Made by a program: the position numbers and the translations under genes. This document shows, piece after piece, positions 40,884 through 45,352 of a stretch of 64,000 nt of DNA (position 1 is its first letter; every line of letters starts with the position of its first letter). The stretch spans positions 1,116,001-1,180,000 of the forward strand of contig NZ_JANHDH010000001.1 of assembly GCF_026616195.1 (NCBI RefSeq), written 5' to 3'. Origin of the DNA: Haloarchaeobius amylolyticus. GTDB lineage: Archaea > Halobacteriota > Halobacteria > Halobacteriales > Natrialbaceae. The notes beneath the pieces are model-generated. The model ran no database searches. It was not told the origin of the DNA and saw nothing but the letters and a program-made list of their open reading frames with translations.

Positions 40884-41086
40884 GTCACTTATCGACGAGC
40901 ACCGAGACTTAATATTTTCTACTTCGGTTGCTGAATTACCGTTGGGCATCGAAATAATAGCAGATATGACTGTACCTACGAAATCGATGTGGGTCGTCTA
41001 TCATCCGGATACAGGGGTGCAACCGACCGCGATGACCGTCGCTTACCCGTGGGGTGCCTCGTCGGTCGAACCCCAACCATTATGGA

Positions 41087-41120
41087 CTCGTCAACCGCGC
41101 TAGCTAGCGTGGTTTACGAG
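41087..41120. promoter_or_regulatory. BirA-type biotin operator candidate at bioB
   Basis: Arms CTCGTCAACC (41087-41096) and GGTTTACGAG (41111-41120) are an inverted repeat with one mismatch, spaced by 14 bases whose core CGCTAGCTAGCG is itself a perfect palindrome. The ACC-N14-GGT layout matches the BirA (biotin protein ligase repressor) site described for bacteria and archaea as I remember it. It overlaps the GTG start of bioB, where a repressor would block transcription. The TATA candidate CATTATGG is at about 41079-41086. Confidence 0.7.
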
Positions 41121-42224
41121 ACAGGAAACAGGACGGTTGACGACGCGGTCGAGCGCGTGGTCGCGGGCGAGACGCTGGACCGGACCGACGGGCTCGCGCT
41201 CGTCGCCCAGCCGGTCGAGGACCTCGCGCCGGCCGCGGACTACATCCGTTCAGAGTTCGGCGACGACACCGTCGACGCCTGCTCCATCGTGAACGCGAAG
41301 GCCGGGAACTGCGCCGAGGACTGCGGCTTCTGCGCCCAGTCGGTCCACTTCGACACGGGCATCGAGAACTACGGCTTCCTCGGCCCCGAGAAGGTGCTCG
41401 AGGCCGCCAAGCGCGCCGAACGCGACGGTGCCCAGCGCTTCGGCATCGTGGTGGCCGAACGCGGCGTCTCGAAGGCGGAGCGCCCCGGGGAGTGGGCGGA
41501 GGTCATCGAGGCCATCCGCCTCGTCCGCGACGAGTGCGACCTCGACGTGGACGCCTCGCTGGGCATCCTCACCGAGGAGGAGGCCGCCATCCTCGCCGAG
41601 GAGGGCATCGAGCACTACAACCACAACATCGAGACCTCGCCGCGGTACTTCCCCGAGATCGTGGGCACCCACGACTTCGCGGACCGCGTGCACACGCTCG
41701 AGGTGGCCAGGGACGCCGGCATGGACCTCTGTGCGGGCGTCATCCTCGGGATGGGCGAGACGCCGACCGACCGGGTCGACGCGGCCATCGCCCTGCAGGA
41801 CATCGGCGTCTCCTCGCTCCCGGTGAACATCCTCAACCCGGTCGCCGGCACCGAGCTCGGCGGGTCGGAGTCGGCCGACATCACCACCGAGGAGATACTG
41901 AAGACCATCGCCGTCTACCGGTTGCTCCACCCGCACGCCCGGGTGCGCCTGACCGGCGGGCGCGAGGTCAACCTCGCGATGGACGAGCAACACCTGCCCT
42001 TCGAGGCGGGCGCCGACGGCATCCTCACCGGCGACTACCTCACGACCGAGGGACAGAGCCCCGGCGACGACATCCGCATCATCGAGGAGGCAGGCCTGGA
42101 GCCGAACATGGAGACGAACGAGTTCGACGCGGAGGCGGTGAAGTCGGCCTCCGACGAGGACTCCGACCTCGGCACCGCCGCCGGGTCCGCGACCAGTACC
42201 GCCAGCCAGACGACCGACGACTGA
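41109..42224 (+). CDS. bioB: Biotin synthase
   Basis: A 371-residue radical SAM enzyme that inserts sulfur into dethiobiotin, the last step of biotin synthesis. The [4Fe-4S] cysteines are C68, C72 and C75 (NCAEDCGFCAQS); later parts match BioB (HYNHNIETSPRYF; GVILGMGET; RLTGGREVNLA). The last 35 residues are an acidic, Thr/Ser-rich tail not present in bacterial BioB. The GTG at 41109 gives MVYETGNRTVDDAV, and the TATA-like sequence 27 bases upstream fits it; the ATG at 41082 would add nine residues encoded by operator sequence. First gene of bioB-bioU-bioF-bioD. Confidence 0.95.
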   Translation: MVYETGNRTVDDAVERVVAGETLDRTDGLALVAQPVEDLAPAADYIRSEFGDDTVDACSIVNAKAGNCAEDCGFCAQSVHFDTGIENYGFLGPEKVLEAAKRAERDGAQRFGIVVAERGVSKAERPGEWAEVIEAIRLVRDECDLDVDASLGILTEEEAAILAEEGIEHYNHNIETSPRYFPEIVGTHDFADRVHTLEVARDAGMDLCAGVILGMGETPTDRVDAAIALQDIGVSSLPVNILNPVAGTELGGSESADITTEEILKTIAVYRLLHPHARVRLTGGREVNLAMDEQHLPFEAGADGILTGDYLTTEGQSPGDDIRIIEEAGLEPNMETNEFDAEAVKSASDEDSDLGTAAGSATSTASQTTDD

Positions 42225-42239: not shown

Positions 42240-43322
42240 ATGGACGACATCACCTTCGCCGTACTCGGCACCGGCGGCATCGGCCGACGAACACTCGACG
42301 TGGCACAGCACAAGGACGGCGTGACCCCGGTCGCGGCCTGCGACCGCAACGGTATCGCGGTCGACCACGACGGCCTCGACGTCACGGAACTCCTCGACGC
42401 GACCGAGGGCAACATCGCGAGCGGCCCGGACGAGGGCGAAGACGACGCGGGAGACGACGACGTGCTGACCGACGGCGGCGCCCAGTCCGTCAAACAGCAC
42501 GGCGAGGACGCCGGCGTCGTCGCCTCCGCACAGGGCGAGCCGACCGAGACGCCCATCCGGGACGTCATCGACGAGGCCGTCGCGGAGGACGTCGACGCGG
42601 TCCTCGTGGCGCTCCCGAACCTCACGCACGACTTCATCCCCCAGACCGCCGACCGCTTCGCCGAGGCCGGCTACGACGGCGTCCTCGTGGACGTGCTCAA
42701 GCGCTCGCGGGTCATCGGTATGCTCGACGAGCGCGAGGAGACCTTCGAGGACTGTGGCATGACCTTCGTCTGTGGCGCGGGCGCGACCCCCGGCTTCCTG
42801 ACCGGCGCGGCCGCCCTCGCCGCCCAGTCGTTCGTCGAGGTCGACGAGGTCGAGATCTGGTGGGGCGTCGGCCTCAGGTCGGGCTACGAGGACAACCGCG
42901 GCACCGTCCGCGAGGACATCGCGCACCTCGACGGCTACGACATCGAGACCGCCCGCGACATGACCGAAGACGAGATCGAGGAACTCATCGACGAGCACGA
43001 CGGCGTCCTGGAGTTCCACGACATGGAGCACGCCGACGACGTGCTGCTCGAACGCGCCGGTATCTGCGACGCCGAGGACGTGACCGTCGGCGGCGTCCTC
43101 GACGTGCGCCAGGACGAGAAGCCGACGACGACGACCGTCAGCGTCACCGGGACGACCTTCGACGGCGAGACGGGCACGAACACCTTCCAGCTCGACGACT
43201 GCACGAGCATGGCGGCGAACGTGAACGGCCCCGCACTCGGCTACATGAAGGCCGGCGTCCGGATGAACCGCGAGGGGCGCTACGGGGTCGTCGGTCCGGC
43301 GGAGGTCATGCCCGGCTTCTGA
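42240..43322 (+). CDS. BioU-like NAD(P)-dependent oxidoreductase (candidate diaminopelargonate synthase)
   Basis: A 360-residue protein of the saccharopine/homoserine-dehydrogenase-like group. Residues 8-17 (VLGTGGIGRR) form a Rossmann dinucleotide site. An acidic insert (about 60-100) interrupts the domain. Lys154 lies in LVDVLKRSRV; subtracting the insert puts it close to position 124, where cyanobacterial BioU has its amino-donating lysine (remembered from the literature, not aligned here). BioU makes 7,8-diaminopelargonate in place of BioA. Its place between bioB (15 bases upstream) and bioF, in a cluster without bioA, supports this role. The alternative is an unrelated dehydrogenase. Confidence 0.75.
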   Translation: MDDITFAVLGTGGIGRRTLDVAQHKDGVTPVAACDRNGIAVDHDGLDVTELLDATEGNIASGPDEGEDDAGDDDVLTDGGAQSVKQHGEDAGVVASAQGEPTETPIRDVIDEAVAEDVDAVLVALPNLTHDFIPQTADRFAEAGYDGVLVDVLKRSRVIGMLDEREETFEDCGMTFVCGAGATPGFLTGAAALAAQSFVEVDEVEIWWGVGLRSGYEDNRGTVREDIAHLDGYDIETARDMTEDEIEELIDEHDGVLEFHDMEHADDVLLERAGICDAEDVTVGGVLDVRQDEKPTTTTVSVTGTTFDGETGTNTFQLDDCTSMAANVNGPALGYMKAGVRMNREGRYGVVGPAEVMPGF

Positions 43323-43413: not shown

Positions 43414-43433
43414 ATGTGCAAACACTGAACCAG

Positions 43434-44639
43434 ATGAGCAACCGTGGGTTCGACCTCGACGAACGCGTCGCCGCCCGCCGCGACCGCGACCTCTACCGGG
43501 ACCTCGCCCCGGTCGACCGGGTGGCAGAACGGAGCTACTTCGCTCCCGACCCGGGCGCCGGCCTGCCGGTCCTCGACGGCAGGCAGCACCTCGTGTTCGG
43601 CTCGAACAACTACCTCGGGCTGACCCAGGACGACCGCGTCCAGCAGGCCGCGAGGGACGCGGCCGAGGTCGTCGGGACGGGGGCGGGCGCGAGCCGGCTC
43701 GTGACCGGCGACACGCTCGCACACCGCGACCTCGAGATGCAACTCGCCGAGGTGAAAGACACCGAGCGCGCCCTCGCGTTCTCCTCGGGCTACGCCGCCA
43801 ACGTCGGGACCATCGCGGCACTCTCGCCCGACGTCGTCTTCTCCGACGAGTTCAACCACGCGAGCATCGTCGACGGCTGCCGGCTCTCCGGCGCCGACAC
43901 CGTCATCTACGACCACTGTGACCCCGCGTCGCTGCGCGAGGAGATGACCCACCGCGCCGAGACCCACGCCGGCGACGAGTCGTGGCTCGTGCTGACCGAC
44001 AGCGTGTTCAGCATGGACGGGACGGTCGCGCCCCTCGCCGACATCTGCGACGTGGTCGAGGCGTTCGGCGCGTGGCTGCTGGTCGACGAGGCGCACGCGA
44101 CCGGCCTGTACGACTACGGCGGCGGCGTCGTCCAGCGCGAGGGCCTCGAAGACCGCGTCCACGTCCAGCTGGGGACGCTCTCGAAGGCGCTCGCGAGCCA
44201 GGGCGGCTACGTCGCCGGCAGCGAATCCCTCGTCGAGTACCTCGTCAACACCGCCCGGTCGTTCGTCTTCTCGACCGGCCTGGCCCCGCCGGCCGCCGCG
44301 GCCGCCAGCGAGGCGTTGCACATCGCCCGCCACGGCGAGTGTCGCGACCGTCTCTGGTGCAACGTCGCCCAGCTCCGGACCGGGCTCGAGGACCTCGGCT
44401 ACGAGGTGTGGGGCGACTCCCAGATCCTCCCTGTGGTGGTCGGCGACCGCGCGACCGCCCTCGACCTCGCCGAGGCGGTCCGCGAGCAGGGCGTCGTCGC
44501 GCCGGCCATCCGGCCGCCGACGGTCCCCGACGGGACGAGCCGCCTCCGGGTCGTCCCGATGGCGACCCACTCCCGGAGCGACATCGAGGACTGCATCGAG
44601 GCGTTCCGGGTCGCCGGCGAGGAGGTGGGGCTGCTGTGA
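43434..44639 (+). CDS. bioF: 8-amino-7-oxononanoate synthase (KAPA synthase)
   Basis: A 401-residue PLP enzyme of the alpha-oxoamine synthase family; it condenses pimeloyl thioester with alanine. Motifs: FGSNNYLGL (57-63), GTGAGASRLVTG, the DEAHATGLYDYGGGV segment (PLP ring Asp/His) and Lys251 in GTLSKALASQGG as Schiff-base lysine. The ATG at 43434 (MSNRGFDLDE) is used; a GTG at 43416 would add six residues. The 111-base gap after the BioU-like gene may hold its own promoter. It overlaps bioD by 4 bases. Confidence 0.95.
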   Translation: MSNRGFDLDERVAARRDRDLYRDLAPVDRVAERSYFAPDPGAGLPVLDGRQHLVFGSNNYLGLTQDDRVQQAARDAAEVVGTGAGASRLVTGDTLAHRDLEMQLAEVKDTERALAFSSGYAANVGTIAALSPDVVFSDEFNHASIVDGCRLSGADTVIYDHCDPASLREEMTHRAETHAGDESWLVLTDSVFSMDGTVAPLADICDVVEAFGAWLLVDEAHATGLYDYGGGVVQREGLEDRVHVQLGTLSKALASQGGYVAGSESLVEYLVNTARSFVFSTGLAPPAAAAASEALHIARHGECRDRLWCNVAQLRTGLEDLGYEVWGDSQILPVVVGDRATALDLAEAVREQGVVAPAIRPPTVPDGTSRLRVVPMATHSRSDIEDCIEAFRVAGEEVGLL

Positions 44640-45352
44640 GCGACCCCGGGCCGGCCCCCGGACCGACCCGGCGCCTCGCCGTCGTCGGGACGGACACGGG
44701 CGTCGGGAAGACGGTCGTCACCGCCGGCCTGACGGGCTGGCTCCGCGAGGAAGGCGTCGATGCCCGGGCCGTCAAGCCCTGCCAGACCGGCTACCCGCCG
44801 GACGACGACGCCGGGTTCGTGCAGGACGCCTGCGGGGATTCCGGGGCCGCGACCTGTCTCGACCGCTTGGAGCCGCCGCTCGCCCCCCGCGTCGCGGCCG
44901 AGCGCGAGGGCGCCGACCTCGACTACGCCGACGTCCTGGACCGGGCCGCCGCAGCGCTGGACGACCCCGCGGTCGGCATCCTCGAAGGCGTCGGCGGTCT
45001 CCGGGTCCCGCTCGCAGGTGAGCACGAGATTCTGGACCTCGTGGCCGACCTCGGCCCGACCACGATTCTCGTGGCTCGGTCGGGGCTGGGGACGCTGAAT
45101 CACACCGCACTGTCGGTCGACGCGCTCCGCGACAGGGGCGTCCCGGTCCACTGCATCGTCCTGAACGAGTACGCGGGCGAGACGGTCGCCGAGCGGACCA
45201 ACCCGGCGGAACTCGAACGCATGACCGGGCTGCCGGTGTACACGCTGCCGGAACTCGGACTCGACGGGCCGGCGGACGCGGTGGCAGGTGTCAGGGAGCA
45301 CCTGCCCGCGGACGCATTGCCCCCGGAGATACTGCCGGCGCTCGACGGCTGA
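44636..45352 (+). CDS. bioD: Dethiobiotin synthetase
   Basis: A 238-residue P-loop ligase that closes the ureido ring of diaminopelargonate with CO2 and ATP. Walker A GTDTGVGKT is at residues 18-26; AVKPCQTGYPPD carries the catalytic Lys and Thr; EGVGGLRVPL is the second family motif. The GTG start overlaps the bioF stop (GTGA). A short Pro-rich tail precedes the P-loop. Last gene of the cluster; an 82-base spacer separates it from the convergent lipoprotein gene. No bioA, bioC, bioH or bioW is present. Confidence 0.96.
   Translation: MSDPGPAPGPTRRLAVVGTDTGVGKTVVTAGLTGWLREEGVDARAVKPCQTGYPPDDDAGFVQDACGDSGAATCLDRLEPPLAPRVAAEREGADLDYADVLDRAAAALDDPAVGILEGVGGLRVPLAGEHEILDLVADLGPTTILVARSGLGTLNHTALSVDALRDRGVPVHCIVLNEYAGETVAERTNPAELERMTGLPVYTLPELGLDGPADAVAGVREHLPADALPPEILPALDG

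Follow-up and report, generated by a model that had tools for sequence, protein, structure and literature searches.

A predicted BirA operator overlapping the start of the biotin synthase gene bioB in Haloarchaeobius amylolyticus

In bacteria, BirA loaded with biotinyl-5'-AMP is described as dimerising and binding its operator (PMC4016012). The consensus given for bacterial biotin operons is TTGTAAACC-[N14/15]-GGTTTACAA, and tabulated sites from Geobacter and Desulfuromonas read TTGTcAACC-N14-GGTTgACgA and similar (PMC545781). In B. subtilis, as predicted here, a Group II BirA serves several biotin-related promoters, namely those of bioWAFDBI, yuiG, and yhfUTS. Binding there needs biotin and ATP, and the sites lie in the 5' UTRs of bacterial genes, unlike the site described below (PMC4016012). 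For the haloarchaeon Natrialba magadii, the BioYMN genes are noted in a passage that does not mention regulation (PMC3403918). Our literature searches found no paper on BirA regulation in haloarchaea. Rodionov, Mironov and Gelfand reportedly described a BirA signal in Archaea in 2002; any novelty holds within the literature that our searches covered.

Here we analyze a palindrome at positions 41087 to 41120 of a 64-kb stretch of H. amylolyticus DNA (the window, 64,000 nucleotides). It resembles the bacterial BirA box in both half-sites, in the N14 spacing, in its biotin gene targets, and in the presence of an HTH-bearing BirA in the genome (PMC545781). Unlike the bacterial box, it lies in an archaeal promoter with BRE and TATA box, it straddles a probably leaderless start, and its right half falls in codons 1 to 4. 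In all likelihood, it serves as the BirA operator for a bioB-bioU-bioF-bioD operon and would control biotin synthesis.

The palindrome and its copies in the genome

The palindrome consists of CTCGTCAACC (41087-41096), GCGCTAGCTAGCGT (41097-41110), and GGTTTACGAG (41111-41120), and 15 of its 17 base pairs are complementary. The first-pass annotation, made from the sequence alone, had described it as a near-perfect 34-base palindrome, and both the letters and the coordinates proved correct. It is the sole 34-mer with at least 15 of 17 pairs in the window. First-order Markov simulations of the window produced at least one such 34-mer in 5 of 200 runs; therefore, the palindromy by itself is only moderately significant. 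A looser motif search of the window, with up to three mismatches, found no more matches than in shuffles. A further half-site at 41134-41143 was considered and dropped, because most of the relatives shown have GGTCGAC there. The features of the locus are collected in Table 1.

Table 1. Predicted features of the bioB promoter region and the genes that follow it
Feature	Position	Strand	Remarks
BRE (CCxxAA)	41071..41076	+	-38 to -33
TATA box, TTATG here	41080..41084	+	-29 to -25; holds the apparent ATG 41082
34-bp palindrome, predicted BirA operator (bioO)	41087..41120	.	spans -22 to +12, numbered from the GTG
Left half-site GTCAACC	41090..41096	+	-19 to -13
14-base centre containing CTAGCTAG	41097..41110	.	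variable sequence, CTAG recurrent
Right half-site GGTTTAC	41111..41117	+	+3 to +9, within bioB codons 1-3
bioB, biotin synthase, GTG start	41109..42224	+	TIGR00433 340 bits, cut-off 225
bioU-like, relative of Slr0355	42240..43322	+	PDB 6ir4 E 6.3e-80; NF047886 BioU 332 bits, below cut-off 600
bioF	43416..44639	+	TIGR00858 403 bits, slightly below cut-off 426
bioD	44636..45352	+	TIGR00347 113 bits, above cut-off 83

For the bioU-like gene, Pfam gave no match at E 0.001. Slr0355/BioU is the enzyme that takes the place of BioA, and there was no bioA among the four operon genes identified.

The half-sites, separated by N14, fit the BirA consensus, and the pattern GTNAACC-N14/15-GGTTNAC is matched exactly at 41090-41117. 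In the 4.6-Mb genome, this exact pattern occurs at two places only, one 5' of bioB and the other 5' of bioY, and the reversed control pattern has no match. The placement of the motif is therefore far from chance, and a chance origin of the exact motif at bioB is far-fetched. A genome search for further sites had been proposed in the first-pass annotation as a check on its reading of the ACC-N14-GGT spacing as a BirA-type operator. The only other exact box precedes bioYMN, and together with the consensus match and an HTH-bearing BirA this supports that reading. When up to two mismatches were allowed, the genome had 81 sites, versus 24 with the reversed pattern, among the matches listed. Two of its sites have one mismatch (L005 and L006). 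L006 (G000:C4:168613-168640) reads GTCAACCAGTCTTTCCAGACTGGTTTTC, a near-perfect inverted repeat that is one mismatch away from the box.

Promoter geometry and first codons of bioB

We found bioB matches in 108 of the 125 genomes of the family. The compared set comprised 106 bioB upstream regions from 105 genomes, with the short or weak fragments of G040, G114, and G123 excluded. GTNAAC lies at -19 to -14 relative to the start codon in 101 of these 106 starts, and GTNAACC in 81. At +3 to +9, 105 starts read GGTTTAC. A register control with N16 instead of N15 after GTNAAC gave 0/125. Across the 106 starts, the distances between box, TATA box, and -1 pyrimidine hardly vary. Of these genes, 100 begin with GTG, five with ATG, and one with ATA, the last being a broken gene (L183).

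The promoter elements were counted in 102 distinct sequences, with that of the window included and L183 excluded. AA occupies -34/-33 in 95 of them, TTA occupies -29 to -27 in 94 (the TATA box reads TTATA in 69), a pyrimidine is found at -1 in 101, and WW occurs inside -12 to -8 in 59. In a set of 103 distinct sequences, the frequency of C is 84% at -38 and 94% at -37. In Haloferax volcanii, motifs are reported at fixed distances from the start codon, namely BRE at -34/-33, TATA at -29 to -25, WW at about -10, and a pyrimidine at -1, and this fixed distance is taken to mean that transcription and translation start together (PMC3986360). The bioB promoter thus has the BRE, TATA box, and -1 pyrimidine of a leaderless haloarchaeal promoter. 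From the spacing of these three elements, the transcription start very probably coincides with the GTG at 41109 or lies right beside it, and the bioB mRNA is probably leaderless.

The reading frame in the window is open from the ATG at 41082, so that BioB might begin there and the operator be translated. This is very unlikely. That ATG sits in the TATA position and is best read as part of the TATA box. The homology of relatives begins at the GTG codon. An in-frame stop occurs within 60 nt upstream in 60 of the 102 distinct sequences, and an open in-frame upstream ATG is found in only 8. From these alignments, bioB is judged to start at GTG 41109, the start that the first-pass annotation had preferred. 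The same annotation placed the operator across the bioB start. The overlap is confirmed, and its picture needs an amendment: with the GTG as start, the right arm belongs to the coding sequence as well.

The GTG in the window thus belongs to a start codon that is conserved in 100 of 106 genes on probably leaderless mRNAs. Published statements on such codons vary: GUG is called non-functional in leaderless initiation in one source (PMC3986360), 118 leaderless transcripts with GUG are counted in another, with about twofold lower coverage (PMC4983044), and GUG translation is given as 5- to 37-fold weaker in a third (PMC4574771). The conserved weak GUG start may keep BioB low.

The right arm lies inside bioB codons 1 to 4, and the right half-site encodes VYE. 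The arm might therefore be conserved as protein, (M)VYE, with the palindromy of the left arm due to chance. After all, 30 bioB genes share 212 invariant residue columns (Met and Trp excluded), and 22 of these use a single codon. Single-codon columns as such are thus not rare, and for this reason our argument rests on one rare codon. All 30 bioB genes use GTT for codon 2, whereas elsewhere in these genes (codon 11 onward) GTT accounts for 29 of 854 Val codons, or 3.4%. None of the other all-Val columns is wholly GTT. Halalkalicoccus paucihalophilus (L254) has GAC as its third codon, with Asp in place of Tyr3, yet the resulting GGTTGAC is an allowed form, and the box is kept. From the fixed rare GTT and from the box that outlasts a residue change, we conclude that the constraint in the first codons acts on the operator DNA. 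Since, in addition, the non-coding left arm keeps its register in 101 of 106 starts and the same box stands outside coding sequence at bioY, conservation as protein with a chance left arm is barely conceivable.

Across named genomes, the strict pattern occurs in 74 of 80 loci, a set that overlaps the 106 starts. Of the six loci without it, four (L246, L257, L282, and L307) still have the two half-sites, with one or two changes, L311 deviates only 3' of GGTTTAC, and the sixth is L254 with its Asp3. Broken or truncated bioB genes gave a mixed picture as a test of the box. The half-sites have decayed in G030 (L183) and G114 (L184), whereas the box is kept in L185, in L186, and at the two-piece bioB of G058 (L182), and the strict pattern is found at the G040 fragment. 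L185 and L186, from G056 and G058, are short genes that correspond to the first 59 or so residues of BioB only and carry a TATA-like sequence and a BirA box. Both genomes also match bioB elsewhere, and in G058 that match is the one in two pieces.

The second site, BirA, and their distribution

The second exact box, on contig C2, precedes a BioY gene (PF02632), with an ABC_tran ATPase and a CbiQ-type membrane protein encoded downstream of it. The ATPase matched NCBIfam ECF models below their cut-offs. By these domain matches, the gene order is that of bioYMN, the biotin transporter genes. The predicted operator thus sits at the promoter of biotin genes in both cases, those of bioB-bioU-bioF-bioD and those of bioYMN. 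Upstream of bioY, the box scored 13 or 14 of 14 in all 30 of the best 30 matches of the family. Tiles of the window, taken as background, scored 12 or less, apart from the tile with the bioB operator. In the examples read, the bioY box ends about 14 to 17 bases before an ATG, and a repressor there would therefore cover the TATA region.

The genome encodes two proteins with a BPL/LplA/LipB domain. One of them, the biotin protein ligase at C1:439797-440744, has an N-terminal HTH_11 (PF08279, 41 bits, cut-off 25) followed by BPL (PF03099) and BPL_C (PF02237), both above cut-off. It matched the BirA structures from S. aureus and E. coli over residues 19-300 and 12-298, which include most of the HTH. 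The operator reading of the first-pass annotation depended on a host ligase with a DNA-binding domain; with the HTH present, the reading was not refuted. All 125 family genomes have a BirA match. A few are partial, and that in G124 (53% complete) is found only at E 4e-4.

In the class as a whole, the strict pattern is present in at least 140 of 194 genomes, with bioB and bioY sites mixed, versus 1 of 194 for the reversed control. Two genomes of one genus, G217 and G255, have a BPL without the HTH, both by Pfam and by tblastn of the HTH in all frames. Their bioY genes have no box above background (10 to 11 of 14). In five HTH-bearing comparison genomes, the bioY box scored 12, 13, 14 (with N13), 14, and 13, of which 12 is the upper edge of the background. 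The site is thus conserved with the gene across relatives, and bioY lacks it where BirA lacks the HTH; this test comprises two genomes of one genus, hence a single event. The box is likewise missing from ten genomes in which no BirA match was found. These say little, because bioB is missing from all ten and bioY from nine, with one weak match.

The association over genomes was counted with a looser box, leaving out 19 genomes that had been preselected for the strict box. It was present in 25 of 39 genomes with HTH-BirA and in 0 of 12 without (Fisher p 9e-5). This association weighs little, because 10 of the 12 lack biotin genes and the genomes are related. The reversed control for the loose box matched in 3 of 70 genomes. 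The exact loose box was not found in 14 of those 39 genomes, which were not preselected for it. The four of these 14 that were examined all have near-boxes at bioY, scoring 12, 13, 13, and, with N13, 14 of 14.

A regulator other than BirA, for instance one of the same specificity, might bind the palindrome. The literature searches found no binding data for a haloarchaeal BirA. The operators of E. coli and B. subtilis differ from each other in sequence and spacing (PMC4016012), a point against the BirA reading. However, the motif is the BirA box (PMC545781), its exact form occurs in this genome only before bioB and bioY, and the bioY box is absent from the two genomes whose BirA has no HTH. We therefore consider a different regulator unlikely. 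By all comparative tests available, 41087-41120 is a BirA operator, and its binding by BirA is predicted.

Predicted control and the operator centre

We suggest the following scenario, in which the dependence on ligand is carried over from bacterial BirA. When biotin is plentiful and the acceptor proteins already carry it, the complex of BirA with biotinyl-5'-AMP would dimerise. The two winged HTH domains of the dimer would bind GTCAACC and GGTTTAC. The site begins just downstream of the predicted TATA box, covers the putative transcription start, and reaches into codon 4. The bound dimer would block either the loading of RNA polymerase or the melting of the start site, and biotin synthesis would be turned off for all four genes, which are probably co-transcribed. 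At the second site, over the bioYMN TATA region, it would turn off uptake. The bioB mRNA would begin at or next to the GTG without a leader, and the right half-site would double as the first BioB codons.

If transcribed, the 34-bp inverted repeat could fold into a hairpin, and the palindrome might then work in RNA as a hairpin, a terminator, or a riboswitch-like leader. Complementary pairs at the inner positions of the centre do show a weak excess relative to column permutation, with z 5.1 for the true centre versus -2.9 to 1.9 for shifted ones, uncorrected for kinship. However, given the promoter spacing, a transcript from at or next to +1 would have only the right half in the mRNA, and the bioY box lies upstream of the predicted start. 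A role in RNA is extremely improbable, and we retain the BirA operator in DNA as the preferred reading.

The first-pass annotation also pointed to a centre that is itself palindromic. This is true of the present genome, where the centre holds CGCTAGCTAGCG (41098-41109), and of a few relatives. Across the family, the 14-base centre is variable, and we rejected the palindromic centre as a conserved part of the operator. What recurs in the centre is CTAG. The window has 12 CTAG versus 86 expected under a first-order model, a seven-fold rarity, and this operator centre alone holds 2 of the 12. Among the 106 bioB operator centres, 52 contain CTAG, at six offsets and in 17 of 24 genera, and CTAG makes up 53 of the 87 NTAN words around the centres. 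A control stretch of 30 bases, from -60 to -31, contains it in 2 of 106. In the overlapping set of named loci, the count is 21 of 80.

Haloarchaea are described as avoiding CTAG while retaining an orphan methyltransferase for it, and CTAG has been linked to kinking of DNA to which a repressor is bound (PMC6471742). In Haloferax lucertense, CTAG is in excess upstream of starts, including near -12 (PMC11001535), and for this reason part of the recurrence may be a general promoter habit. The CTAG of the operator centre could also be functional, with either m4C methylation by the widespread haloarchaeal orphan methyltransferase or kinking tuning BirA binding or promoter opening. We regard this as a speculative idea that is probably wrong. 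If true, biotin synthesis would also respond to an epigenetic mark or to DNA shape, at a start with a conserved weak GUG.

The predicted switch is of a known type; what is unusual is that operator, predicted transcription start, and first codons overlap. The comparisons are strong evidence for a bacterial-type metabolite repressor on archaeal promoters. One box would serve in two geometries, over the start site at bioB and over the TATA region at bioYMN. At bioB, an operator half-site would dictate which synonymous codons open the gene. The alignment also adds some hundred conserved GUG starts, the mRNAs of which are probably leaderless, and the bioB operator centre offers a place to test what CTAG sites do in haloarchaea.
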